Shown: one piece after another, positions 2 through 13,242 of the stretch
Layout: every line of letters starts with the position of its first letter
How positions within the stretch are numbered: position 1 is the first letter of the stretch
DNA from: a virus
DNA: 22,966 nt
Direction: 5' to 3' (one strand)
IMG/VR virus record: IMGVR_UViG_3300037258_000018
Coordinates: 1 to 22,966 of that record
Program-made: the position numbers and the translations under genes
Notes under the pieces: generated by a model
The model's database searches: none
Told to the model about the DNA's origin: nothing
What the model saw: only the letters and a program-made list of their open reading frames with translations

Positions 2-958
2 TTCACGGGTATTGAGAACGTCGTGGGCGCCGCGCTCGCGGGCGAGCAATGGGTTTTGGATGTCTACCATACCCACGGGATGATGTACGAGGCAACCGCT
101 GCAACCATCACTGGCATTCCCTTTGACGAGTTCGTCAAGCATCGCCTCGACACGGGCGGCAAGGCAGAGTACGACGCCAACGGAAAACTCATCGGTATTG
201 TGGGCGGCAAGCATCACCCGATGCGCAACAAAATTGGCAAGTTCGCCGTGCTCGGGTCGTTCTTTGGCGGTTGGATTGGTGCGTGGAAATCGTTTGGTGC
301 CGATGAATTTTTGACAGACCCCGAGATTAAATCGGCCATCCTAGCGCTACGTGCCCGCTCGCCCAACTACGTCGAGACGTGGGGCGGCCAAACCCGCGAT
401 GCATTCGATTGGAACAAGACGCCGTACCAACAACTGTTCGGCCTTGAGGGTGCAGCAATTGCGGCCGTGCAGAATCCCGGACAAGCGTTCTACGGCAACG
501 CGGCCAAGACTATCGTTTTGCAAATGTCCGGCGATGTGCTGTACATGCGCTGCCCCGGCGGCGGCCTCCTCACCTATCACAACCCTCACCTCGTGACCTC
601 GACGCGGCCCTACGCGCAACCGTGGGAGCTTGAACTATCGTTCATGGGGTACAACACCAACCCCAAGAAAGGCCCGGTAGGTTGGATACGGATGAAGCTC
701 TATGGCGGGCTCATCTTTGAGAACGCCGTGCAACACGTCGCTCGCCATATCCACGCAACGGGTATGCTCAATTGCGAGCGCGCCGGCTATAAAATCGTGA
801 TGCACACACATGACGAGCCGTGTGCAGAAATTGAAAAGGGCCTCGGCTCCATTGAGGAGTTCGAGACCCTTATGTGCAAGCAGTCCGAGGAGTTCGCCGG
901 CTGGCCTATCAGAGCAAAAGGCGGATGGCGCGGCGGACGCTACGGCAAGTTCGACTAG
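2..958 (+). CDS. Family A DNA polymerase, C-terminal polymerase domain (5' end outside window)
   Basis: This is the palm/fingers part of a phage PolA-type DNA polymerase that extends DNA during phage replication. The frame is open to the left edge, so the gene starts outside the window. The first visible residues (FTGIENVVGAAL) fit motif A after its metal-binding Asp, which would lie just upstream. Motif B reads RNKIGKFAVLGSFFGG, with the conserved Lys and a Phe-Gly where many relatives have Tyr-Gly. Motif C is HTHDEP, which carries the catalytic Asp. The C-terminus (GGWRGGRYGKFD) resembles other phage PolA ends. It is the only convincing + strand gene and converges on the lysis genes. Its TAG stop shares the palindrome CTAG (955-958) with the stop of the opposing i-spanin gene. 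The motif A position that is Arg in the classical IELR motif is not Arg here. No exonuclease domain is visible. Confidence 0.9.
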   Translation, partial: FTGIENVVGAALAGEQWVLDVYHTHGMMYEATAATITGIPFDEFVKHRLDTGGKAEYDANGKLIGIVGGKHHPMRNKIGKFAVLGSFFGGWIGAWKSFGADEFLTDPEIKSAILALRARSPNYVETWGGQTRDAFDWNKTPYQQLFGLEGAAIAAVQNPGQAFYGNAAKTIVLQMSGDVLYMRCPGGGLLTYHNPHLVTSTRPYAQPWELELSFMGYNTNPKKGPVGWIRMKLYGGLIFENAVQHVARHIHATGMLNCERAGYKIVMHTHDEPCAEIEKGLGSIEEFETLMCKQSEEFAGWPIRAKGGWRGGRYGKFD

Positions 959-1467
959 TGAGCGGGAGCCGGTGGCACGCCAAGGTCGGCAATGTACTTT
1001 GTCAGTCGCGCGACCGTGGCTTGCAGCCCTATTACTTGGTCGTCAGCGTCGCGCAGGGCTGTAAGGGTTGGCCCGCTAGGGTCAAAACCCCCTGTGCTTG
1101 GTAGCACGGCGCCTGCATCAACGACGGGTTCACTTTGGGCGGGGGCGGTAGCTGCACTACGTAAGGTCGGCACGGCGGCGTTGCGGCACACGATGCCAGT
1201 ATTAGCAACAGCGGGAACAGCAAGTTTCTCATGGTAGGTAACTCCAATTTCGTCGAGGTCGTGGGAAGCTGCGAGCGCAAGCGCATCGTCGCGCTGCTTG
1301 GTGACGGTTGCAAGTTTGGTGTCCTGCGCCGTCACAATGGCCGCGCCCTTAGCTTGCTCAACGTGGTCATGGTGAACCCATGCACCGCCGCCAACAATCA
1401 GGACTAGACCGATTATCGTTGCATAGAAAATGTCAGAGCCGGGAATGAGCTTGAGTAATGCGAGCAT
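955..1467 (-). CDS. Rz: i-spanin (Rz-like inner-membrane lysis protein)
   Basis: This is the inner-membrane half of a spanin pair, which links the inner and outer membranes and disrupts the outer membrane at the end of lysis in Gram-negative hosts. The 170-residue product has an N-terminal membrane anchor at about residues 12-31 (DIFYATIIGLVLIVGGGAWV). A charged, Ala/Gln/Asp-rich segment likely to be helical follows, then a periplasmic tail. The strongest evidence is a lipoprotein gene nested in another frame inside it (1032-1232), which is the lambda Rz/Rz1 layout. ATG at 1467 lies one base after the stop of the preceding small membrane gene. Sequence similarity to lambda Rz is not obvious; the call rests on architecture and position at the end of the lysis cassette. 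Confidence 0.8.
   Translation of the reverse strand: MLALLKLIPGSDIFYATIIGLVLIVGGGAWVHHDHVEQAKGAAIVTAQDTKLATVTKQRDDALALAASHDLDEIGVTYHEKLAVPAVANTGIVCRNAAVPTLRSAATAPAQSEPVVDAGAVLPSTGGFDPSGPTLTALRDADDQVIGLQATVARLTKYIADLGVPPAPAH
1032..1232 (-). CDS. Rz1: o-spanin (Rz1-like outer-membrane lipoprotein), nested in Rz
   Basis: This 66-residue lipoprotein is encoded wholly inside the i-spanin gene in a different frame. It begins MRNLLFPLLLILASC, a short signal peptide with lipobox LASC, so lipidation is predicted at Cys15. A proline-rich stretch (VQLPPPPKVNP) follows, typical of Rz1 proteins, along with extra Cys residues. The frame is open further upstream, to about 1313, but ATG at 1232 is preferred because TTGGAG lies at good spacing before it and the signal peptide starts there. 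In lambda-like systems Rz1 sits in the outer membrane and binds Rz across the periplasm. Its presence argues strongly for a Gram-negative host. Confidence 0.85.
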   Translation of the reverse strand: MRNLLFPLLLILASCAATPPCRPYVVQLPPPPKVNPSLMQAPCYQAQGVLTLAGQPLQPCATLTTK

Positions 1468-3884: not shown

Positions 3885-5789
3885 TCAGACGTTTGCGTTG
3901 ACTGTCACGGTGACGCCCGGCGGCGTCGGGATGACCCCCGACTGTTCCAGAATTGCAAGCTGAATCGGAGTCGGTTGAAAAGTAAGGTTATATGAGATTG
4001 CCATGGGGCTCACATTGAGGACCCACGCGGTTCCCGTGCCGTACAGATTTTGCAAAATCTGATTGATGGCGGGGGCAGTCGTCGCGCAAATATTCGCGAA
4101 CGCCTTGGCGAGGATGAGTTGCCGGTAGGCATCGTCCGGCAGCAAGTACGCTTGTGTCGCATTGTAGCCCGTATACATCTGGCCGCCGACCGCGGGTTGT
4201 GGCGGTTGGTCACTGCCCATCGGCTGCCAATCTTGGTCAGGCTGCGACTCGCTTGCGATGTAAAAACCCACATAATCACTCGTTGTCGAAATCTGCAAGA
4301 GGCGGCCGACGCCGACGATGCGCCCGAGAATATCGAGACCAAATCCTTGCGCGGAATTGATGTTCCACACATAGTTGTAAAACGCCGCGAAGTTCGCAGA
4401 TTGGTCAATGTATTGATTCATGTTCTGCACCAACTGCATGAGCGTCGGTGAGTTGGCGAACTGTGAAATGACTGTCTGTTCCGCATCAAAGAGATTGGAT
4501 GCCGCGGGGAACCCCGTGGAAATCACGAATGATACGATATTGCCCGGCGCAATGAGTTGTCCGGCGCTCGGGTTTTGGGTCATGACCTCATTAGCTGGAA
4601 AAATCTTGGACGGTGCGAACCCCACCGCGCCCGGCGTTAGGCCGAGCGAGAGTAGTAGATTGGTCGCGTCCTCTTGCGTGAGGCCGAATAGATCGGGGAC
4701 CGTCAGCGGCGGCAAGCCCTGCGACACAACAATGCTAACCGGACTTCCTTCAATAACCGTTGTGCCCGCAGCGGGGCTCTGCGATATGACATTGCCGGCA
4801 ATGACGGTGCCACTCGGCGCGTAAGTCACTGCCCCGCTCACGAGATTGGCCGCAATCAGAATGTCGGGCACAAGTCCAATCGCGAGATTCACGACATTCG
4901 GAACGGTCGTCGATGTGGTCGGCACTGCAATTTGTAAGTCGATGGCTGAGCCAATCGTTGCACTTGCGCCGCCGCCCGGCGCCTGCAATATGACGGTGCC
5001 CGGCGTCGAGAGACTTGGGACATCCGTGACAGTGCCTACGGTGAAACCCGCGCCGGTAATCGCCGTTGTCGCGGCAGCCAGCGTATCGCCCATGACGTTC
5101 GGGACACTCGCCGTTGTGACGGGGCTCACGAATGGCGCGGTATATTGAATCTGCGAGGCGGCAATGTTCAGAGAGGGCGAGTGCTGCACTTGTCCCCAAA
5201 TGAGACCCGGATTCCATCCGGTCAGCGCGCCGCCCGCAGTGAAATCGTAATGCGAGGAAACGTCAATGCTGCCGGCGGTTCCCCATCCCGAGGCAGGCGC
5301 AACCAACTGCCACACGCCGCCGAACGACAAGTAAGCGGTGACGATGTTGTTGACGAGACCGATTCCAATGGCGTCGGGTAGCGCACCGCCCGTATTGATA
5401 GATGTAGAGGCAACCGTTGCCAGCGTGCCGGAAACCCATATCACCAAGTACATCGTCAAAGTGGTTGCAGACGTTTGCGGGCCAAGTTCAAAGAACAATG
5501 CGTTGTTCGCATCCTTGACGATGCCGACGCCGAAATTGGCTTGACCGTTAGTAAGCACTGTCCACGTGGGCGAGCCCATCGCTGCCGTCACTGTGACACT
5601 CGGGCTTGAGATGGCCCAAGCGTTCTCACCAACTGTGAGGCCGGTCACGGTGCCGCCCGCTGTCACCGCCGTCAACGTTAGTTGATTGCCAGCGATGAGA
5701 AACGAACCACTCGCAGCGGCCCACGTAGCCGGCGAGTATTGGGTAAGCTGCCCGGTGTTCGATGCAAAATTGTCTGTTAAAACGGTCAT
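3885..5789 (-). CDS. Baseplate protein: beta-sandwich domain, three PASTA repeats, DUF2612 domain
   Basis: This is a 634-residue composite baseplate protein. Residues 1-220 look like a lectin/LamG-type beta sandwich (DNFASNTGQLTQYSPATWAA...). Residues 227-290, 294-358 and 362-427 are three PASTA-like repeats. Each starts with VPN(V) or VPDL, then has a helix and a G-X-V/T strand, a Q-(S/N/A)-P turn and a final beta strand (for example ISQSPAAGTTVIEGSPVSIVV). Residues of about 431-634 match DUF2612 (NMNQYIDQSANFAAFYNYVW, GFGLDILGRIVGVGR, DDAYRQLILAKAFANI), a phage baseplate family usually found alone at about 200 residues. It lies 16 bases after the gpJ-like gene and before the tail fibre. The extra 430 residues are the unusual part and may form a baseplate-anchored adhesin. 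PASTA domains elsewhere bind cell-wall fragments; binding here is inference. Confidence 0.85.
   Translation of the reverse strand: MTVLTDNFASNTGQLTQYSPATWAAASGSFLIAGNQLTLTAVTAGGTVTGLTVGENAWAISSPSVTVTAAMGSPTWTVLTNGQANFGVGIVKDANNALFFELGPQTSATTLTMYLVIWVSGTLATVASTSINTGGALPDAIGIGLVNNIVTAYLSFGGVWQLVAPASGWGTAGSIDVSSHYDFTAGGALTGWNPGLIWGQVQHSPSLNIAASQIQYTAPFVSPVTTASVPNVMGDTLAAATTAITGAGFTVGTVTDVPSLSTPGTVILQAPGGGASATIGSAIDLQIAVPTTSTTVPNVVNLAIGLVPDILIAANLVSGAVTYAPSGTVIAGNVISQSPAAGTTVIEGSPVSIVVSQGLPPLTVPDLFGLTQEDATNLLLSLGLTPGAVGFAPSKIFPANEVMTQNPSAGQLIAPGNIVSFVISTGFPAASNLFDAEQTVISQFANSPTLMQLVQNMNQYIDQSANFAAFYNYVWNINSAQGFGLDILGRIVGVGRLLQISTTSDYVGFYIASESQPDQDWQPMGSDQPPQPAVGGQMYTGYNATQAYLLPDDAYRQLILAKAFANICATTAPAINQILQNLYGTGTAWVLNVSPMAISYNLTFQPTPIQLAILEQSGVIPTPPGVTVTVNANV
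4509..5111 (-). repeat. Triple PASTA-like repeat region within the DUF2612 protein
   Basis: Three tandem units of about 65 residues are encoded here. They align by eye on VPNVMGDTLAAATTAI / VPNVVNLAIGLVPDIL / VPDLFGLTQEDATNLL. The middle parts are TPGTVILQAPGGGA / IAGNVISQSPAAGT / PANEVMTQNPSAGQ, and the closing strands are IDLQIAV / VSIVVSQG / VSFVIST. The units differ clearly in sequence, so the duplication is old or the array was acquired as such. Confidence 0.8.
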
Positions 5790-5805: not shown

Positions 5806-7299
5806 TTAAGTTATGACGTTGATGTTGGCTGCCGCAATCGTCGGCTCTTGGTCAATACCCATCTGCACGTTCGACCCGCTAGACGGATTGGACGAGAACC
5901 CCACGAATATCGTGAGAATTGAAACCTCATTACCGATTGCCTGCACGGGCGCATAGTAGCGTGATGCCAAAATTTGAGACGCGGTGCGCTCGCGCAAACT
6001 GCCCTGCGTCTGCCCCGTGAACTGCGCGACGATGGCTTGCTGAACGAGAGTCACGATGTTCGCCGGCAACAGCGACGAGGCGGCGAGCGTCACTTGGAAA
6101 TACACAGGCGTCTGCGCCGGGTTGATGTAATTGACCACGTAGGACGGCACGGGCGGATTATAGCCACTCGGGTCGGTCACTGTCTCACTCACAAGAGTTG
6201 CGCCGGCCGTGCCTTGCTGCGCGCCCGTCACTATCCCCGACGACACGGTGCCTGTGGTGCTCACGGTGAGAGTGCCATGGCCGAGCGCGTGCGTGTAGGT
6301 TCCGAACGCAGTGACGATGCTATTGGGCTCAACGCCTGCGCCGTTCAAGGTCATGCCAATCGAGATGTAGTTGTTGCTGTTACCGTTGGCGGTCGTCGTG
6401 GCAATCGTGACTGTCGTCCCCGACTGCGAGCCGGTGCCGGTGAAATTTGGCTGATAGCTGACGCCCACGTTGGTCGCTGCCCAAATGGCCGCTGCTACCG
6501 ACGCCGCTGCGCCACCGCTGACCGCGATGTACACCGAGCGCGGCGCCACAGGGAACGAGGTTGAATTAGGGTTGCCATTGATGGCGCCTGATATTGTGGC
6601 GTCCGTGTTGTTCTGAGTGACGAACACGTCAATGACATCGGTCGTTGAGAAACACGCGGCATAGATCGCAGGCAATGAACCCTGCGCATTCAAGCCCACA
6701 GATTGTTCGCGGCGGTACTCGAACGCGGCCGGCGTCTCAACTGCGGCGCCAATGACGCCCGGCGAGACGTTGTTGACCGATTCCCACCCGTTAATAGCCT
6801 GATAGATAATAGTGACGGTATTGGCCGGGCACGGCGTTGGGCCGGCCACGACGTTCGCGAACGGCAGAGTGATGCTGCCGCCGATAGGAATGGTGCCGGA
6901 CTGCGAACAAATGTACACATTGCCGCTCGTATCTTGTACGAGCGCGCCGACCGGAATAGGCGTGCCAAAGGTTCCAACGCACAGGCAATTGACCGTCGTG
7001 GGCACGGCGGGATTACGGTTCAGAAAGTAAAAACGCGCGACGGCATCTTGCATGAATCCGGTGTTTTGGTCAGGGTCAACCTGATTGACGAACGTCGCAA
7101 ATACTGTGTTGGCGTTCGCAATCATCGCGGTCAAGCTCGACACGAGTTGCCCCTGTGGGCTGTTGAGCGCAGGATTTAAATTGCCACCGAACGCGGCGTT
7201 AAAATCTGCCTGTACGCCTGCGAGAATCGCGGCCTCAGTCGGTATCACCAACCCTGTCGGGGTAAACTGCGGCGTTGGAACGTTGGTCGTATTTGCCAT
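5806..7299 (-). CDS. Baseplate wedge protein, gpJ-like (Baseplate_J family)
   Basis: This 497-residue protein is the conserved ring-forming wedge of contractile-tail baseplates. Family features include the N-terminal LVIPTEAAILAGVQADFNAAFG, SPQGQLVSSLTAMIA, the HVDPDQN-like segment NQVDPDQNTGFMQDAVARFY, EYRREQS, and a C-terminal QAIVAQFTGQTQGSLRERTASQI. Residues of about 285-360 form an inserted beta module absent from ordinary family members as I know them (see separate entry). The frame is open to 7398, but ATG at 7299 (MANTTNVPTPQFTPTGLVIP) is preferred. It is two bases after the gp25-like stop, and the upstream residues lie inside that gene. Confidence 0.88.
   Translation of the reverse strand: MANTTNVPTPQFTPTGLVIPTEAAILAGVQADFNAAFGGNLNPALNSPQGQLVSSLTAMIANANTVFATFVNQVDPDQNTGFMQDAVARFYFLNRNPAVPTTVNCLCVGTFGTPIPVGALVQDTSGNVYICSQSGTIPIGGSITLPFANVVAGPTPCPANTVTIIYQAINGWESVNNVSPGVIGAAVETPAAFEYRREQSVGLNAQGSLPAIYAACFSTTDVIDVFVTQNNTDATISGAINGNPNSTSFPVAPRSVYIAVSGGAAASVAAAIWAATNVGVSYQPNFTGTGSQSGTTVTIATTTANGNSNNYISIGMTLNGAGVEPNSIVTAFGTYTHALGHGTLTVSTTGTVSSGIVTGAQQGTAGATLVSETVTDPSGYNPPVPSYVVNYINPAQTPVYFQVTLAASSLLPANIVTLVQQAIVAQFTGQTQGSLRERTASQILASRYYAPVQAIGNEVSILTIFVGFSSNPSSGSNVQMGIDQEPTIAAANINVIT
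6220..6447 (-). repeat. Inserted beta module in the gpJ-like wedge
   Basis: Residues of about 285-360 read FTGTGSQSGTTVTIATT, then SIGMTLNGAGVEPNSIVTAF, GTYTHALGHGTLTVSTTGTV and SSGIVTG. They sit between the end of one gpJ segment (WAATNVGVSYQPN) and its continuation (GATLVSETVTDPSGYNPPVP). The segment closely resembles the sheath insertion at 15187-15399, sharing TGSQ, VTIA, GAGV, FGTYT, LGxGT and VST..TVS in the same order. Confidence 0.75.
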
Positions 7300-7301
7300 G
7301 A

Positions 7302-7670
7302 TTAGATGCTCACTGCTTGCGTCTGTCCGTTGCTCGTCGTGAATGTCACTTGCCCTTTCGCCAATCGGCTCACTGAGTCGAAATTGTCTAGCGTGCAAAC
7401 CGCCGTCGCCACACTAGGCACGGTCAAGGATGCTTCAACGAATTGCTCTTGGAACACGGAAGCCGGCGGGGTCTGTCCGAATATCAGGCCGAAGTAATCC
7501 ACCCCCAAGCTCGTATCATAATAGACCTCACCGAGCACTGTGCGACACGCGCACGCCACATCCTGCGCAACCGCATAGGGTGGCGTGGCGAGGGCGATGT
7601 TGCCGTTGGCATCAAGGGTAAGGTCCCAAGTGCCTACGTCGAGCAACAGTGTCGAATAAGGTGCGGTCAT
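7302..7670 (-). CDS. Baseplate wedge, gp25/W-like
   Basis: This is a small 122-residue baseplate protein. The family pattern of gp25-like wedges is visible in WDLTLDANGNIALATPPYAVAQDVACACRTVLGEVYYDTSLGVDYFGLIFG: a linking strand, an A-x-D-V-x-x-x-x-R-T helix with a local E-x-Y, then the turn leading to a DY motif. Its position between the spike and gpJ genes is the usual one. It overlaps the spike stop by one base (TAATG) and ends two bases before the gpJ start, so the three wedge/spike genes are probably translationally coupled. Confidence 0.85.
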   Translation of the reverse strand: MTAPYSTLLLDVGTWDLTLDANGNIALATPPYAVAQDVACACRTVLGEVYYDTSLGVDYFGLIFGQTPPASVFQEQFVEASLTVPSVATAVCTLDNFDSVSRLAKGQVTFTTSNGQTQAVSI

Positions 7671-9346
7671 TAAGCAATCCTCCTAAACCAGTCTACAATA
7701 GCAGTCGAGGCCCCTGCCGTCACACCTTCCCAACAAAAACCAATCAGAGTCGGAACTGCGCCTATGAAAGTAGCCGGCAATTCCTGATAGATGGTCACAA
7801 AAGTCCCTATGTGTCCGCTAAAGCTGTATCTATAGTTTATGTGCGTGCCATCGTAATCGACTTGCAGGTATAGCGGCTGCGCAAAAAATGGACCGAGCGG
7901 CGGGTTAGCTGTGCCCGCATTGCCTGACGTGGTATAGCCCGGCGTCCCGGAGGCTGAGTAAGCCGTTGCCGAAAACGTCGTGTTGTTCGTGTAATGCTGC
8001 ACCGTCCAATATCCAGATGCTATGCCCCACACTGACAGCTTACCGTTCGTACCGTTGCTAATGACAAAACCAAATAACACCGATCCTTGAGTGTAGGGAA
8101 AGTATGATACTATTTTCATTTGATACGTCCAATTACCGGACGCGGGCGCAGGCTGAGTGTACTGCGAAATTGTGACAAATGAATTTGGAATAGCGACGTT
8201 CATTGCGCCTTGACCATTCAGAGTCGGAGTTGCCGTCGCTCCCAAATTGTAGCCGGTCCACGCAGTCGCCCCTGAGTATCGGGCACCAGTTGTATCGAGC
8301 ACTGTGCCATATTCAAACTCATCATTCGGCCCTATTCCGACTCCCGTTGGCGTCGCAGGGTGCATGTCGGGAGTTACATTGAACACAGTTGAGCCACCGC
8401 CCGAGCCATTCGAGGCAGCGGTGACTTGCCCTTGTGCGTTGACGGTAATGTTGGCACTGGTGTAACTGCCCGGCGTGACCGCCGTATTGGCGATGTTTAC
8501 CGTGGTGCCGCCGCCCGTGACGCTTATCCCGGTGCCCGCGGTCACAGTTTGCAGCGCGGTCACAGCGAGCGCGAGAGCGGCGATGGACGCGCTACTCAAG
8601 GCAATGGTGCCGCTCGTCGTGATGGGGCCGCCGGTCAAACCTGTGCCGGTCGCAACGCTCGTGACTGTGCCGCCGCCCCCGCCCCCACCGCCTATGAAGC
8701 TCGACGCGGTGACGCTGCCCGAGAACACTGCTGACGCGCCAGCAATGGTTGTCGTGGTGAGACCGCCCGATAGCGTGGATGCTCCCGTAACCGCGAGGGC
8801 TGCTTGCAGCGTCGTGTTGCCGGTGACATTCAACGTGCCGCTGTTCGTCGTCGCTGGCGCCTGAATCGCCACCGTGCCCGGCGACACAATGTTGATGCCC
8901 CCGCCGCCGGTTAGAAATTTGATGTACTGTGTGGGCGGGGTGTTCAGAATGCCGCCGATGTATACGCCGTCAGACCACGAGAATCGCCGGCCGCTCGCAG
9001 GGTTCGCCGCAGCCTTGGCGGAAATCACGGCGCTTATATCGCGTGAGGCGAAAATCATGGTGCCAATGTCGCCCACGGCCGGGTCGCAGATGATACCGTT
9101 GGTGCCGCCCTGCAATCGGAAGTATGGCCGACCGCCGAGGCGCCCGTGTGGAATAGAGATGCCTGCGCCGGACAGTAGGTTGACGAGCACGACAACATCG
9201 ACGGTCATGGCTCCCGTATCGACGGCGAGCACTTCCACCACACTCATCGTCTGAACGTCATCCAACACGCGCTGAATCTGAAACTCTAGCGCGTTGTAAT
9301 CGCTCGCGTCCGAAAACGGCGTAGCTTGACCAACTGCGGCGGTCAT
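7670..9346 (-). CDS. Baseplate spike with Gp138-type N-terminus fused to a fibre and lectin-like tip
   Basis: This 558-residue protein is probably the central membrane-piercing spike or a spike/fibre hybrid. Residues of about 19-145 match the Gp138 N-terminal OB-type domain (EFQIQRVLDDVQTMSVVEVL, GDIGTMIFASRDISA, GRRFSWSDGVYIGG). Residues 150-218 are VTG/TLxG repeats suggesting a trimeric beta-helix shaft. Residues 219-226 are eight consecutive Gly. Residues 227-315 contain the common fibre motif GTVTSVATGTGLTGGPITTS. Residues of about 325-558 form a beta-sandwich-like C-terminal domain (NDEFEYGTVLDTTGARY ... YLQVDYDGTHINYRYSF). ATG at 9346 overlaps the hub stop by four bases (ATGA), so it is preferred to the upstream start at 9379. 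The C-terminal coding region is visibly less GC-rich than the rest. Confidence 0.8.
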   Translation of the reverse strand: MTAAVGQATPFSDASDYNALEFQIQRVLDDVQTMSVVEVLAVDTGAMTVDVVVLVNLLSGAGISIPHGRLGGRPYFRLQGGTNGIICDPAVGDIGTMIFASRDISAVISAKAAANPASGRRFSWSDGVYIGGILNTPPTQYIKFLTGGGGINIVSPGTVAIQAPATTNSGTLNVTGNTTLQAALAVTGASTLSGGLTTTTIAGASAVFSGSVTASSFIGGGGGGGGTVTSVATGTGLTGGPITTSGTIALSSASIAALALAVTALQTVTAGTGISVTGGGTTVNIANTAVTPGSYTSANITVNAQGQVTAASNGSGGGSTVFNVTPDMHPATPTGVGIGPNDEFEYGTVLDTTGARYSGATAWTGYNLGATATPTLNGQGAMNVAIPNSFVTISQYTQPAPASGNWTYQMKIVSYFPYTQGSVLFGFVISNGTNGKLSVWGIASGYWTVQHYTNNTTFSATAYSASGTPGYTTSGNAGTANPPLGPFFAQPLYLQVDYDGTHINYRYSFSGHIGTFVTIYQELPATFIGAVPTLIGFCWEGVTAGASTAIVDWFRRIA

Positions 9347-10302
9347 GACTGCACCGCCGGAAGCGCGCCGGGCGGCCATAATTTCATGTCAGTGAACCAC
9401 GCACCGCCGGGCTTTTGGCATTCGATAGTGTGGACGAGGGGACCGATGGCCCAATTGCCATTCGCTGAACTGTTGAGCGTCGCTTGCGTGCCGGCTTGCG
9501 TACCTATGTTTTGGTCAATCACAACGTCACTGCCCTGAATTGTGAGCGGTCCCAAGAGGCGCAGCGCCGGGTTAAACACCGAGCGCACGTTGAGGTATCC
9601 ATTGCCGAGCACTTGCGGGTAGCCCACGAGACCGGATTGCGGCGTCAGCAAAAACGGTTGAATCGTCGTGCGCGCCATGCCGGCCGGCGTGATGATAATG
9701 GACGAGGTTTCGCCCGGGTCCACAGCGAGATACGCGCCCGCGGCCCGCACCGCCTGTCGTAGCTGCGACATGAGCGTTCCCGAGAAATAAGCGTTGGTAG
9801 TCGAGCCGGTCACGCCATCGTTCTCGAACGTAAACGACAGCTTTGATGCAATGCTGCCGATGATGTCAGACCACTGCGCGATGCCGGGAAAGGCTGTCGG
9901 TTGCGCTGGCGTCAATTGCTCATACCCGCCATTCTGCCCGTGAACCATCAAGTACACGTCGGGCGACTCGGAATATTCCGGGCCGCTTTGAATGATTTGG
10001 CCCGAGAAAATATAGACGAATCCCGAGCCCGAGTCAGCCTCAATCTGCATGGTGTTGCGAGTGTACTGTGGTTTGCCGCTGTCGGTCTGCACACGAGCAA
10101 GGGCGTTCATATCAGCTTGCCGCATTCCATAGATGCGCAACGTTGCCTCGGGGAATGCGGGGATTCCCGATTGCTTGACCACAGCGGACATGCGCAGTCC
10201 CGACACTTGCAGCGTGTTCGAGTTGGTCCCGGGAAACACTGCATTGCTGTTCGTCAGCGTGAATGTCACCCGGATATTTTTGACTGTGTAACTGCTAGCC
10301 AT
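9343..10302 (-). CDS. Baseplate hub protein, E217 gp41-like
   Basis: This 319-residue protein should form the hub that joins tail tube and spike. The N-terminal half has the hub-type beta fold with SGLRMSAVVKQSGIPAFPEATLRIYGM and ADMNALARVQ. Then follow IEADSGSGFVYIFSGQIIQSGPEYSESPDVYLMVHGQNGG and a helix-rich part (IIGSIASKLSFTFENDGV, LMSQLRQAVRAAGAYLAVD). The PTGI-like C-terminal part includes QSGLVGYPQV and VRSVFNPALRLLGPLTIQGSDV, typical of T4 gp27/E217 gp41-type hubs. It overlaps the upstream plug gene by eight bases and the downstream spike gene by four. The specific family name is from memory of the pattern, not a search. Confidence 0.75.
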   Translation of the reverse strand: MASSYTVKNIRVTFTLTNSNAVFPGTNSNTLQVSGLRMSAVVKQSGIPAFPEATLRIYGMRQADMNALARVQTDSGKPQYTRNTMQIEADSGSGFVYIFSGQIIQSGPEYSESPDVYLMVHGQNGGYEQLTPAQPTAFPGIAQWSDIIGSIASKLSFTFENDGVTGSTTNAYFSGTLMSQLRQAVRAAGAYLAVDPGETSSIIITPAGMARTTIQPFLLTPQSGLVGYPQVLGNGYLNVRSVFNPALRLLGPLTIQGSDVVIDQNIGTQAGTQATLNSSANGNWAIGPLVHTIECQKPGGAWFTDMKLWPPGALPAVQS

Positions 10303-10676: not shown

Positions 10677-11444
10677 CTATTGGGCCAACCATTTCAAAAA
10701 CGCAACCTCATCGTTCGGGTTCGCGAGCGCTTGCGCCGCAGCCGTCGAAATCTGAGGGCTTGGAGTCGTGGGCAAACTCAATGCCTGATTCGTGGTCGGG
10801 ACCGCCGAGGGCACGCTTGAGTTCGACAAGTCGGTACTCGTGGTCGCCTGTCCGTACTGCACTGGCACGGGGTTAATCTGAATGAAAAACAACTCAACGT
10901 CGAAATAGGCGTGGTTCTCGGTGCCGCGCCGGGCAAGTTCGGCTCGCGTCGCGCTCATGTTCTTGTACGTCTTTTCCGGCGTGCGGACGGTGTAGAGCGC
11001 AATGTTGCTCTGAGCAATCACCGCGTCAACCTCTTGCAGGAACGTCGTGCGGTCCGCGAGCGTGCCGCCTTTCGTCAAAACAATTGAGCACTCATAGGGC
11101 AAACCCACGCGGTTGTACGTCGCGAACTGACCTTGCTGGATAGGGAAATTTCCAATGCGATTCTCTTGGCGCCAACCCATGTCCATCACCGAGTCGGCCG
11201 TAACCGCCAAATCGTCGTTCTCGTCATAGACACCCCACACAATCTGAGACTGCGTTGACTGCCAGATGGCGGACACCGTGGACGGCGTTGCAATCGTCGG
11301 CGCGAGCAATGCGGGGAACAGCAACGAGCGCGCCAACTGCGGCACGCCCGGAAGTGCCGGCACGTTCGGGAACGGTGGCGTGGCGACCGTAATGGCGATG
11401 CCGAGCCCGGCGCCCCATCCTTGAGTAATGATAGCGGCACTCAT
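10677..11444 (-). CDS. Dit-like baseplate/tail-end protein
   Basis: This 255-residue protein lies directly after the tape measure, where the distal-tail or initiator subunit is expected. Its centre carries a pattern of conserved baseplate proteins: WGVYDENDDLAVTADSVMDM, RIGNFPIQQGQFATYNRVGLPYECSIVLTKGG, RTTFLQEVDAVIAQSNIALYTVRTPEKTYKNM and a closing DVELFFIQINPVP. The C-terminal 65 residues are Ser/Thr/Pro-rich and probably flexible. ATG overlaps the tape-measure TGA by four bases (ATGA). The Dit-like family assignment is moderately confident; a role in tail initiation follows from position. Confidence 0.65.
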   Translation of the reverse strand: MSAAIITQGWGAGLGIAITVATPPFPNVPALPGVPQLARSLLFPALLAPTIATPSTVSAIWQSTQSQIVWGVYDENDDLAVTADSVMDMGWRQENRIGNFPIQQGQFATYNRVGLPYECSIVLTKGGTLADRTTFLQEVDAVIAQSNIALYTVRTPEKTYKNMSATRAELARRGTENHAYFDVELFFIQINPVPVQYGQATTSTDLSNSSVPSAVPTTNQALSLPTTPSPQISTAAAQALANPNDEVAFLKWLAQ

Positions 11445-13018
11445 GATTGCCCCGTATCGGCTTGAGTGACCGAGAGCTTGCGATTGATGGCCGCCGGCAA
11501 TTGCTCGGCCACATGGCGCGGGTCAGCTTGCGGCGCATTGATGTTGATAGTGTCGATGTCCACGGTAGTCGTCGCACCGCCCGAGTTCCCGCGGGAACTC
11601 TGCGAACGGCGGGTATTGCCCGACTCGTAATCCGTGATGATTTGCGTGAGCTTGGCAATGTCGCCCTTGCCCACTTCCTCGTGACCGAGCGCGTTTTTGA
11701 CGTAGGCTTGATACGCAGGAATGTTGTTGTTCTTGGTGTCGCCGCCCTCATAGGCGTTGATGAGCGCGTCAACCGAGGTCAGCCCGCGGCCAATTTTGGC
11801 GGCCAAGTCCCCCTCTAGCGCAGCCTTGCCCTCGGCAAACGATGCATACTTGCGTTTGTTGCCGAACCTGTCTTGGATGTTCCCGGGATTGTTGTTTCGC
11901 GCGGCGAGACTGCCCGCCTTGGGTCCCACGTAACCATCGGTGCCCGATTGGTCCGTACCTGTGGCCGAGGTCACAACGTTGCCGGACTGCGCTGCGGTCT
12001 GTGTCGCCCACAGCTTGGCAATGTCAGCGTCAGCCTGTATGTCGGCCGCCTTGCTACGCGCGGATTGGTCGTTGAGGATGGCCGCCGCGCCCTTGAAATC
12101 GCCGTGCAGCGCGGCTCCTATTGCGGCAGCGGCTCCACCAACCGAATCGCCCACGCCCACGAAAATGCGCTTGATGGCAATGGCCGCGGACCCGATGAGC
12201 TTGAGCCCCGTGGAAAACTCGTCGCTCTGCAAATTGATTTCCCCGAACACGGAGAACAACTGCTTGAGCGCGGGAGTGACGGCCGTCAATATCATCTGCC
12301 CGGCAGCCTGAATGTGCAGTCCCACCGCGCGCCAATACTCTTGAAGTTCCTGCGCCTGCTTGACGCTCGCCTCGTTGACGGCGTTGTTTTGCTCGGACAG
12401 CCGCAATTGCTGTTCGCGCTCTTGCCGCGTCTCAATGAGGTACTTGATGTGTCCCTCGTCGAGCCCGGCTTGGCGAAATAGTGCCGTCTGGTATTGCTCG
12501 CCATATTGAGCGGTCTTGTCCGCCAATTCCTCGAATATCGCGCCTTGATTCCGTAACTGTCCGTTCGAGTCGCGCACGTTGACGCCGACTTGGCTGAGGA
12601 TGTTGAGGAGCGCCGTAGGACCCGCGATGCCGGCGGTGAGGTTCGAGAAATCGTTGGTGAGCTTCGCGAAATCGCTTTGGACGCCCTCAGCGCTTTGCCC
12701 GGCTAGGACCGCGGCATTGCCCCACTTGTTCAGTTCGTGGGCGCTCATGCCGATTTGGTTGGCCGTGCGACCCAACTGAGCCTCGCCCGAGTTCAGCGCG
12801 CCGAGCCACTTGGCGAATCCCGTGGCCGACTCGAACCCGAGGAACAACCCGGCCACGGTTTTACCTACGTCGAGCAAGGACTTGGTTAAATCCTCGGACG
12901 ATGCTTTGACCTTGCGGGCCGTCTCGCTCGTTTCTTTTTCGGCTTGCTCGCGCCCTTTCTTATAGTTCGAGGCGTCGAGACCGAGTAGAACGACTAGGCT
13001 GTCAATTACGGTTGCCAT
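11441..13018 (-). CDS. Tail tape measure protein with lysozyme-like domain
   Basis: This 525-residue protein sets tail length and is ejected first into the cell. The N-terminal part is helical and charged (ASNYKKGREQAEKETSETAR). A tape-measure segment follows (LGRTANQIGMSAHELNKWGN ... ALFRQAGLDEGHIKYLIETR), then hydrophobic helices at about 235-315. Residues of about 372-446 (AARNNNPGNIQDRFGNKRKY, FAEGKAALEGDLAAKI, TSVDALINAYEGGD, NIPAYQAYVKNALG) resemble a lysozyme/transglycosylase-like domain found in phage virion proteins. It may open the cell wall locally during entry. It is short for a tape measure, which implies a short tail. ATG at 13018 overlaps the stop of the frameshift ORF by one base (TGATG); the TTG one codon upstream is less likely. 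Confidence 0.88.
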   Translation of the reverse strand: MATVIDSLVVLLGLDASNYKKGREQAEKETSETARKVKASSEDLTKSLLDVGKTVAGLFLGFESATGFAKWLGALNSGEAQLGRTANQIGMSAHELNKWGNAAVLAGQSAEGVQSDFAKLTNDFSNLTAGIAGPTALLNILSQVGVNVRDSNGQLRNQGAIFEELADKTAQYGEQYQTALFRQAGLDEGHIKYLIETRQEREQQLRLSEQNNAVNEASVKQAQELQEYWRAVGLHIQAAGQMILTAVTPALKQLFSVFGEINLQSDEFSTGLKLIGSAAIAIKRIFVGVGDSVGGAAAAIGAALHGDFKGAAAILNDQSARSKAADIQADADIAKLWATQTAAQSGNVVTSATGTDQSGTDGYVGPKAGSLAARNNNPGNIQDRFGNKRKYASFAEGKAALEGDLAAKIGRGLTSVDALINAYEGGDTKNNNIPAYQAYVKNALGHEEVGKGDIAKLTQIITDYESGNTRRSQSSRGNSGGATTTVDIDTININAPQADPRHVAEQLPAAINRKLSVTQADTGQS

Positions 13019-13242
13019 CAATCCGTCTCGTTCGCGCGTCGGGTATTGAACGCATCGACGGTGATAACCTCAACCAAGTCGAATAAATCGCGCACGCCGT
13101 ATGCCGACTGCAACTCATACAGGGTCGCGCGCCCCGATGATACCACCATGCCTATCAGCGGGGGAAGATTGACGTACTGCGCAAACCCACGGCCGGCGCG
13201 CTTGCCGGGCGGCCCTAAGTCGGGGGCGCCGCGCCCGCGGAA
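13018..13242 (-). CDS. Tail assembly chaperone, frameshift extension (gpT-like part)
   Basis: This is the -1 frame continuation of the tail chaperone gene. It has no good start of its own and a different composition from the first part. The frame reads FFRGRGAPDLGPPGKRAGRGF, then QYVNLPPLIGMVVSSGRATLYELQSAYGVRDLFDLVEVI, and it stops one base into the tape measure start. If joined at the GGGTTTT site, 74 residues are added to 135 residues of the first frame, giving a 209-residue product. In lambda the equivalent gpG-gpGT fusion binds the tape measure through the T part. The position directly before the tape measure fits. Confidence 0.8.
   Translation of the reverse strand, partial: FRGRGAPDLGPPGKRAGRGFAQYVNLPPLIGMVVSSGRATLYELQSAYGVRDLFDLVEVITVDAFNTRRANETD

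Follow-up and report, generated by a model that had tools for sequence, protein, structure and literature searches.

A baseplate protein encoded by an uncultivated contractile-tailed phage contains three genuine PASTA domains, set between a variable N-terminal domain and a C-terminal DUF2612 domain of the baseplate wedge. The best reading, to which we give a probability of roughly two in three (0.68), is that this protein is a wedge subunit with a covalent, modular receptor-binding arm, the PASTA array forming the stalk and the N-terminal domain an interchangeable tip. The window, meaning the whole 22,966-nucleotide stretch that was analysed, is a 23-kb fragment of this phage. The arm combines known parts in a new way, and the openly licensed literature that we searched contained no description of PASTA in a baseplate.

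PASTA domains in a baseplate wedge protein

The three PASTA units occupy residues 227-427 of the 634-aa protein, between the tip and DUF2612 (Table 1). The Pfam PASTA profile (PF03793) matches the protein in three stretches (E 3.8e-31, 107.3 bits), each unit individually exceeding the curated cut-off of 23.2 bits; all unit matches fall within 4509-5111, where the initial annotation had seen three PASTA-like repeats, and its proposal is borne out. A PASTA HMM that excludes the window's units scores the region at 202.6 bits, compared with 14.3 bits for the best of 1000 shuffles and -0.1 for the reversed sequence. Pairwise identity among the three units is 27-36%, and recent duplication is therefore not their origin. 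Structure prediction, which had been proposed as a check together with the profile search, gives the same answer: in the AlphaFold model, whose block-mean pLDDT over the stretch is about 84-97, strand-helix-strands units of PASTA topology recur, each with one helix lying on a three-stranded sheet. The closest fold match is S. aureus PrkC (3py9; Foldseek E 5.9e-15; VIA Z 14.3), followed by the third PASTA domain of M. tuberculosis PknB (3ouv; Z 12.1, rmsd 1.2 over 67 residues). The DUF2612 parts of the model are of low confidence, and fold matches there were for this reason left unused. The PknB and PrkC arrays have in common with the phage array both the fold and the linear arrangement of several units, but they belong to kinases, whereas the phage chain bears no kinase or transpeptidase domain (PASTA and DUF2612 are all that it shows above the Pfam cut-off), has almost no basic residues and is a predicted virion protein.

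Table 1. Positions of the fusion gene, its domains and the adjoining genes in the window
Feature	Position	Strand	Remarks
PASTA-DUF2612 fusion gene, complete	3885..5789	(-)	634 aa, single open frame, no stops
N-terminal tip domain, residues 1-226	5112..5789	(-)	all-beta, concanavalin-like at low confidence
PASTA unit 1, distal (c3)	4929..5105	(-)	Pfam 36.6 bits
PASTA unit 2, middle (c2)	4719..4907	(-)	Pfam 45.6 bits
PASTA unit 3, wedge-proximal (c1)	4515..4703	(-)	Pfam 43.2 bits; most conserved unit of the family
DUF2612 baseplate wedge domain (PF11041), residues 437-629	3903..4481	(-)	T4 gp7 / XM1 gp17 / Pam3 gp23-like; Pfam E 4.8e-46, 157.4 bits
Baseplate J-like wedge protein, counterpart of T4 gp6 / XM1 gp16	5806..7302	(-)	immediately upstream; order kept in nearly all relatives
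Tail fibre gene, 412 aa	2634..3872	(-)	immediately downstream; PHROG 12796, E 5.2e-45

The DUF2612 protein also matches PHROG 587 (E 1.8e-57). Its sequence matches to structurally characterized wedge proteins are weak (XM1 gp17, 7kh1, E 0.0034; Pam3 gp23, 7yfz, E 0.011), and the gp7/gp17-like identity is upheld nevertheless because gene order agrees: the succession of hub, spike, gp25-like, gp6-like (Baseplate_J), gp7-like (DUF2612) and fibre genes is found in the window and in most relatives, a tail fibre gene following the wedge gene in nearly all of them. The fusion thus has in common with XM1 gp17, T4 gp7 and Pam3 gp23 both the DUF2612 domain and the slot between a Baseplate_J gene and a fibre gene. 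At the spike position, the window encodes a 559-aa baseplate protein (7670-9349, minus strand) without significant Pfam or PHROG match, whose C-terminal third looks beta-rich and binding-domain-like and whose length varies among relatives.

XM1 gp17 is the homologue of T4 gp7; one copy per wedge is complexed with two gp6-like proteins, its flexible loop and C-terminus hold twelve spikes, and a pull on these spikes has been proposed to trigger contraction (PMC10457771). Given that XM1 gp17 holds receptor-binding spikes, an adhesin borne by a wedge protein is plausible. The attachment differs: XM1 gp17 binds separate spike proteins by its loop and C-terminal segment, while the arm of the window's fusion is N-terminal. 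The N-terminal helices of XM1 gp17 sit inside the (gp16)2-gp17 core bundle, which counts against the arm reading, as an arm leaving at this end might clash with the bundle. The clade of the window lacks the C-terminal tail of 30-40 residues seen in most stand-alone DUF2612 relatives, and most of its 17 members also lack the extra downstream fibre cassette of those relatives. As a general rule, however, replacement of a C-terminal spike-docking tail by the arm was rejected, since the tree shows no independent joint change of PASTA and tail: in a test of PASTA/tail co-change with 4 supported pairs, the tail differs in under one on average.

Other DUF2612 proteins vary in other ways. GP075 of Pseudomonas phage K8 is likewise a DUF2612 wedge protein, and its variants bind core oligosaccharide; the changes there are point mutations or a 7-aa internal duplication, in contrast to the added domains of the window's fusion. 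In two Achromobacter prophages (L174, L175) and a virus contig (L259), DUF2612 has an N-terminal extension of another kind (about 270-290 aa, 'MTTNIVNVFEPAQFGVGDGATT...') that contains no PASTA; this represents an independent case of fusion to the N-terminus of the wedge domain.

The initial annotation had placed the phage in a Gram-negative host on account of its spanins. Such a host is plausible from the relatives, which include phages or prophages of Gram-negatives; the o-spanin match itself is weak (PHROG 4306, Rz-like, E 0.0025). A small lipoprotein-like frame (1032-1313, minus strand), the source of this match, is nested, in a different reading frame, in a membrane-anchored one (955-1467, minus strand), and the two are probably a nested spanin pair. 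The protein at the tape-measure position (11441-13021, minus strand) contains 'RNNNPGNIQDRFG...', which by eye resembles a motif of virion-associated peptidoglycan hydrolases.

Recurrence and geometry of the fusion

A survey of DUF2612 proteins for the same fusion, suggested in the initial annotation, yielded 25 distinct loci besides the window in which PASTA and DUF2612 form a single frame, all in uncultivated virus contigs and counted as distinct sequences in loci reached via the capsid protein or DUF2612. An assembly or frame artefact as the source of the fusion is ruled out by these 25 loci. The capsid-protein route gave 50 virus records, with PASTA above the cut-off in 9 and DUF2612 in 31, and a search with a DUF2612 alignment added further relatives beyond this set. 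All 45 PASTA-bearing frames in the examined loci, which were fetched by capsid protein or DUF2612, also bear DUF2612. Conversely, 86 distinct DUF2612 frames in the same loci are PASTA-less, in keeping with the earlier statement that DUF2612 normally stands alone. The full-length 634-aa query found no relative among the viral or genome contigs, because the search patterns probably fell in variable parts.

In the other collections searched, the fusion was not encountered. The 50,697 GenBank phage records searched contain none, DUF2612 matches there spanning that domain alone and PASTA matches lying in records from Listeria, Enterococcus or gut viromes that carry no annotation; a match in phage Highwayman that reaches into the third PASTA unit runs across two genes and was rejected as a fusion. 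None was found in bacterial genome contigs among 41 DUF2612 loci, nor, by match extent, in the 397 family-level and 385 class-level genomes around Bombella, where PASTA matches sit in separate frames. PASTA in Gram-negatives outside kinases and PBPs is seen in three proteins from the family-level genomes (L325, L326, L327), which resemble one another, are about 450 aa long and consist of a charged N-terminal region, then three PASTA units, then a conserved domain at the C-terminus. About seven PASTA units, several of them very poor in K/R and phage-like in style, occur in a protein of up to 743 aa that looks secreted (L331:1058-3286, plus strand) and is encoded by the proteobacterial MAG UBA6915 (the genome of L180); a protein of this type is a candidate for the kind of donor from which the phage PASTA came. 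PASTA in uncultivated phage proteins is itself already known from annotations in BFVD (e.g. A0A6J5NDH4, A0A8S5MTT6). A further parallel is crAssphage, in which tandem repeats of a carbohydrate-binding-type domain, BACON, occur in a phage protein (PMC6949934); the domain and the protein are different there, and the protein is not a DUF2612 wedge fusion.

Within the family, the geometry of the array is nearly constant. Proteins carry 1-4 units, and the array is therefore not 'fixed' across the family as first described, but the pitch is 63-70 residues in every multi-unit array and the linkers between units measure 4-9 aa, with L227 (16 aa) as sole exception. The gap from the last unit to DUF2612 is 6-16 aa, apart from 41-42 aa in L167 and L168, each of which has one divergent unit. 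In a tree of 65 units, grouping follows the position counted from the wedge: wedge-proximal units (c1, 17 rows) and second units (c2, 15 rows) form supported clades, and position labels change 12 times compared with 31.2 in shuffles, none of 200 shuffles being as low. By this tree, units that hold the same place counted from the wedge are orthologues. Both this register and the near-constant pitch and linkers favour the spacer stalk that the initial annotation had offered as one of two possibilities.

These data also bear on the idea that the PASTA and lectin-like domains are neutral decoration, passively acquired as cargo and without a defined role. The distribution of the fusion on the DUF2612 tree is patchy, as such cargo might be: the tree, which cannot separate gains from losses, requires 6 changes in PASTA, of which supported branches force at least 4, and PASTA was therefore gained or lost repeatedly. 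However, the uniform geometry, the positional orthology and the supported clade in which the window falls, with 17 rows from distinct lineages that all bear PASTA, argue for a maintained function, and we regard passive acquisition as very improbable.

Exchange of the distal tip

Close relatives trade tips while stalk and wedge persist, which lends good support to the reading of the array as a stalk that presents a lectin-like tip. The wedges of L155 and L165 share 95% identity and their stalks 71%, yet similarity between their tips is undetectable; for L141 and L159 the corresponding values are 94% and 67%, and again the tips show no similarity. Over the 14 closest pairs, mean identity declines from the wedge (90.1) through c1 (78.5), c2 (69.8) and c3 (60.2) to the tip (24.1, against a shuffled-tip baseline of 18.1). 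L141 and L165, which have a tip type in common, are 78% identical in their distal PASTA unit compared with about 55% with their neighbours, as if this unit travelled with the tip. The distal domain is thus variable and exchangeable on a conserved base, as expected of a receptor-binding protein.

In siblings, a significant Laminin_G_3 domain (Pfam) lies at the equivalent position. BNR-repeat-like tips are suggested by a sub-threshold Pfam match in L234, with which the tips of L232, L233 and L241 group; other tips are beta domains that belong to no assigned family. For the window's tip, residues 1-226, Pfam gives no match, and modelled alone it yields a poor, all-beta model (pLDDT 49.7), for which Foldseek returns E-values no better than 2.4e-3 with many concanavalin-like folds among the weak matches. 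The label 'lectin-like' given earlier to these residues is accordingly of low confidence for the window's own tip, although siblings have Laminin_G_3 at that position. The window tip is related to that of L226, itself a fusion, and outside fusions to the N-terminal part of tail proteins of 508-513 aa (L333, L334) that adjoin fibre genes in two other phages.

Two further points speak against a receptor-binding arm: the lack of a significant family match and of a good structural model for the window's tip, and the five PASTA relatives (L145, L147, L168, L231, L242) with no tip, or with at most about 40 residues before PASTA, in which the array cannot present a tip of the same chain. In L145, a 567-aa protein is encoded directly upstream of the tip-less PASTA-DUF2612 gene (L145:6005-7705, plus strand); its second half resembles by eye the second half of the L333/L334 proteins, which suggests a detached adhesin. 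Its BLASTP match to the window's tip is not significant (E 0.066), and homology of the two was not accepted.

Stalk or ligand-binding array

A different reading assigns ligand binding to the PASTA array itself, which would bind peptidoglycan or another envelope polymer after passage of the outer membrane and signal to the wedge or anchor the contracted baseplate. Muropeptide binding is known for PASTA units of PknB and PrkC, but in B. subtilis PrkC only one of the three domains binds the DAP-muropeptide and Arg500 is required, muropeptide binding not being intrinsic to PASTA according to the authors (PMC3601408). The persistence of tip-less PASTA on DUF2612 in four of the relatives above (L147, L168, L231, L242) would also suit a binding array. 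The composition of the phage units does not: Arg and Lys together account for about 0.5% of the residues counted over all phage PASTA, and the window's units lack Arg altogether and have very little Lys. We weigh this argument moderately because the phage tips (K+R 1.4%) and the PASTA of L331 are also very poor in these residues. In contractile tails generally, elements borne on the wedge remain at the cell surface as the tail contracts, and would therefore rarely meet peptidoglycan. The 'peptidoglycan sensor' of the initial annotation is thus not supported, and we consider a ligand-binding array unlikely. In PknB, the length of the PASTA array itself matters for function (PMC6428115), which is in line with a spacer role of the phage PASTA.

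Two other readings deserve mention. Wedge-borne PASTA arms could act as sensors of envelope state, such that after docking of the tip, contact with peptidoglycan or an inner polymer would be relayed via the gp7-like domain and license contraction; we hold this to be distinctly unlikely. Alternatively, stalk and ligand binding might coexist, the stalk adding a weak, non-specific affinity for the envelope and the tip giving specificity. The persistence of tip-less arrays and the good conservation of c1 would agree with this, but packing on the wedge explains the conservation of c1 equally well and the putative binding lacks positive evidence, so that such a dual role seems quite improbable.

We therefore return to the modular receptor-binding arm. 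The C-terminal DUF2612 domain would be seated in the wedge core beside the gp6-like protein, and a short stalk of 1-4 PASTA domains (three in the window) would leave its N-terminus and end in an interchangeable beta-rich tip, probably carbohydrate-binding. With one such subunit per wedge, each particle would have six arms, next to the fibres that the following gene encodes. The PASTA stalk would set their reach and spacing, and the conserved wedge-proximal unit would hold the junction constant during tip swaps. Recombination in or above the array may exchange the tips and so alter the choice of cell-surface glycans that are gripped. Binding of a tip would then pull directly on the wedge, the part proposed to trigger sheath contraction.

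Contractile phages usually recognize their receptors with separate fibres or spikes that dock onto the wedge. In the family described here, a modular arm would instead be part of the wedge subunit, with the fold of a bacterial signalling domain serving as a rod and with tips that are traded between near-identical phages. The family could thus offer a clear and testable case of host-recognition modules moving through recombination at a repeat array, and it carries a warning that PASTA in viral proteins should not be read as a 'peptidoglycan sensor'.
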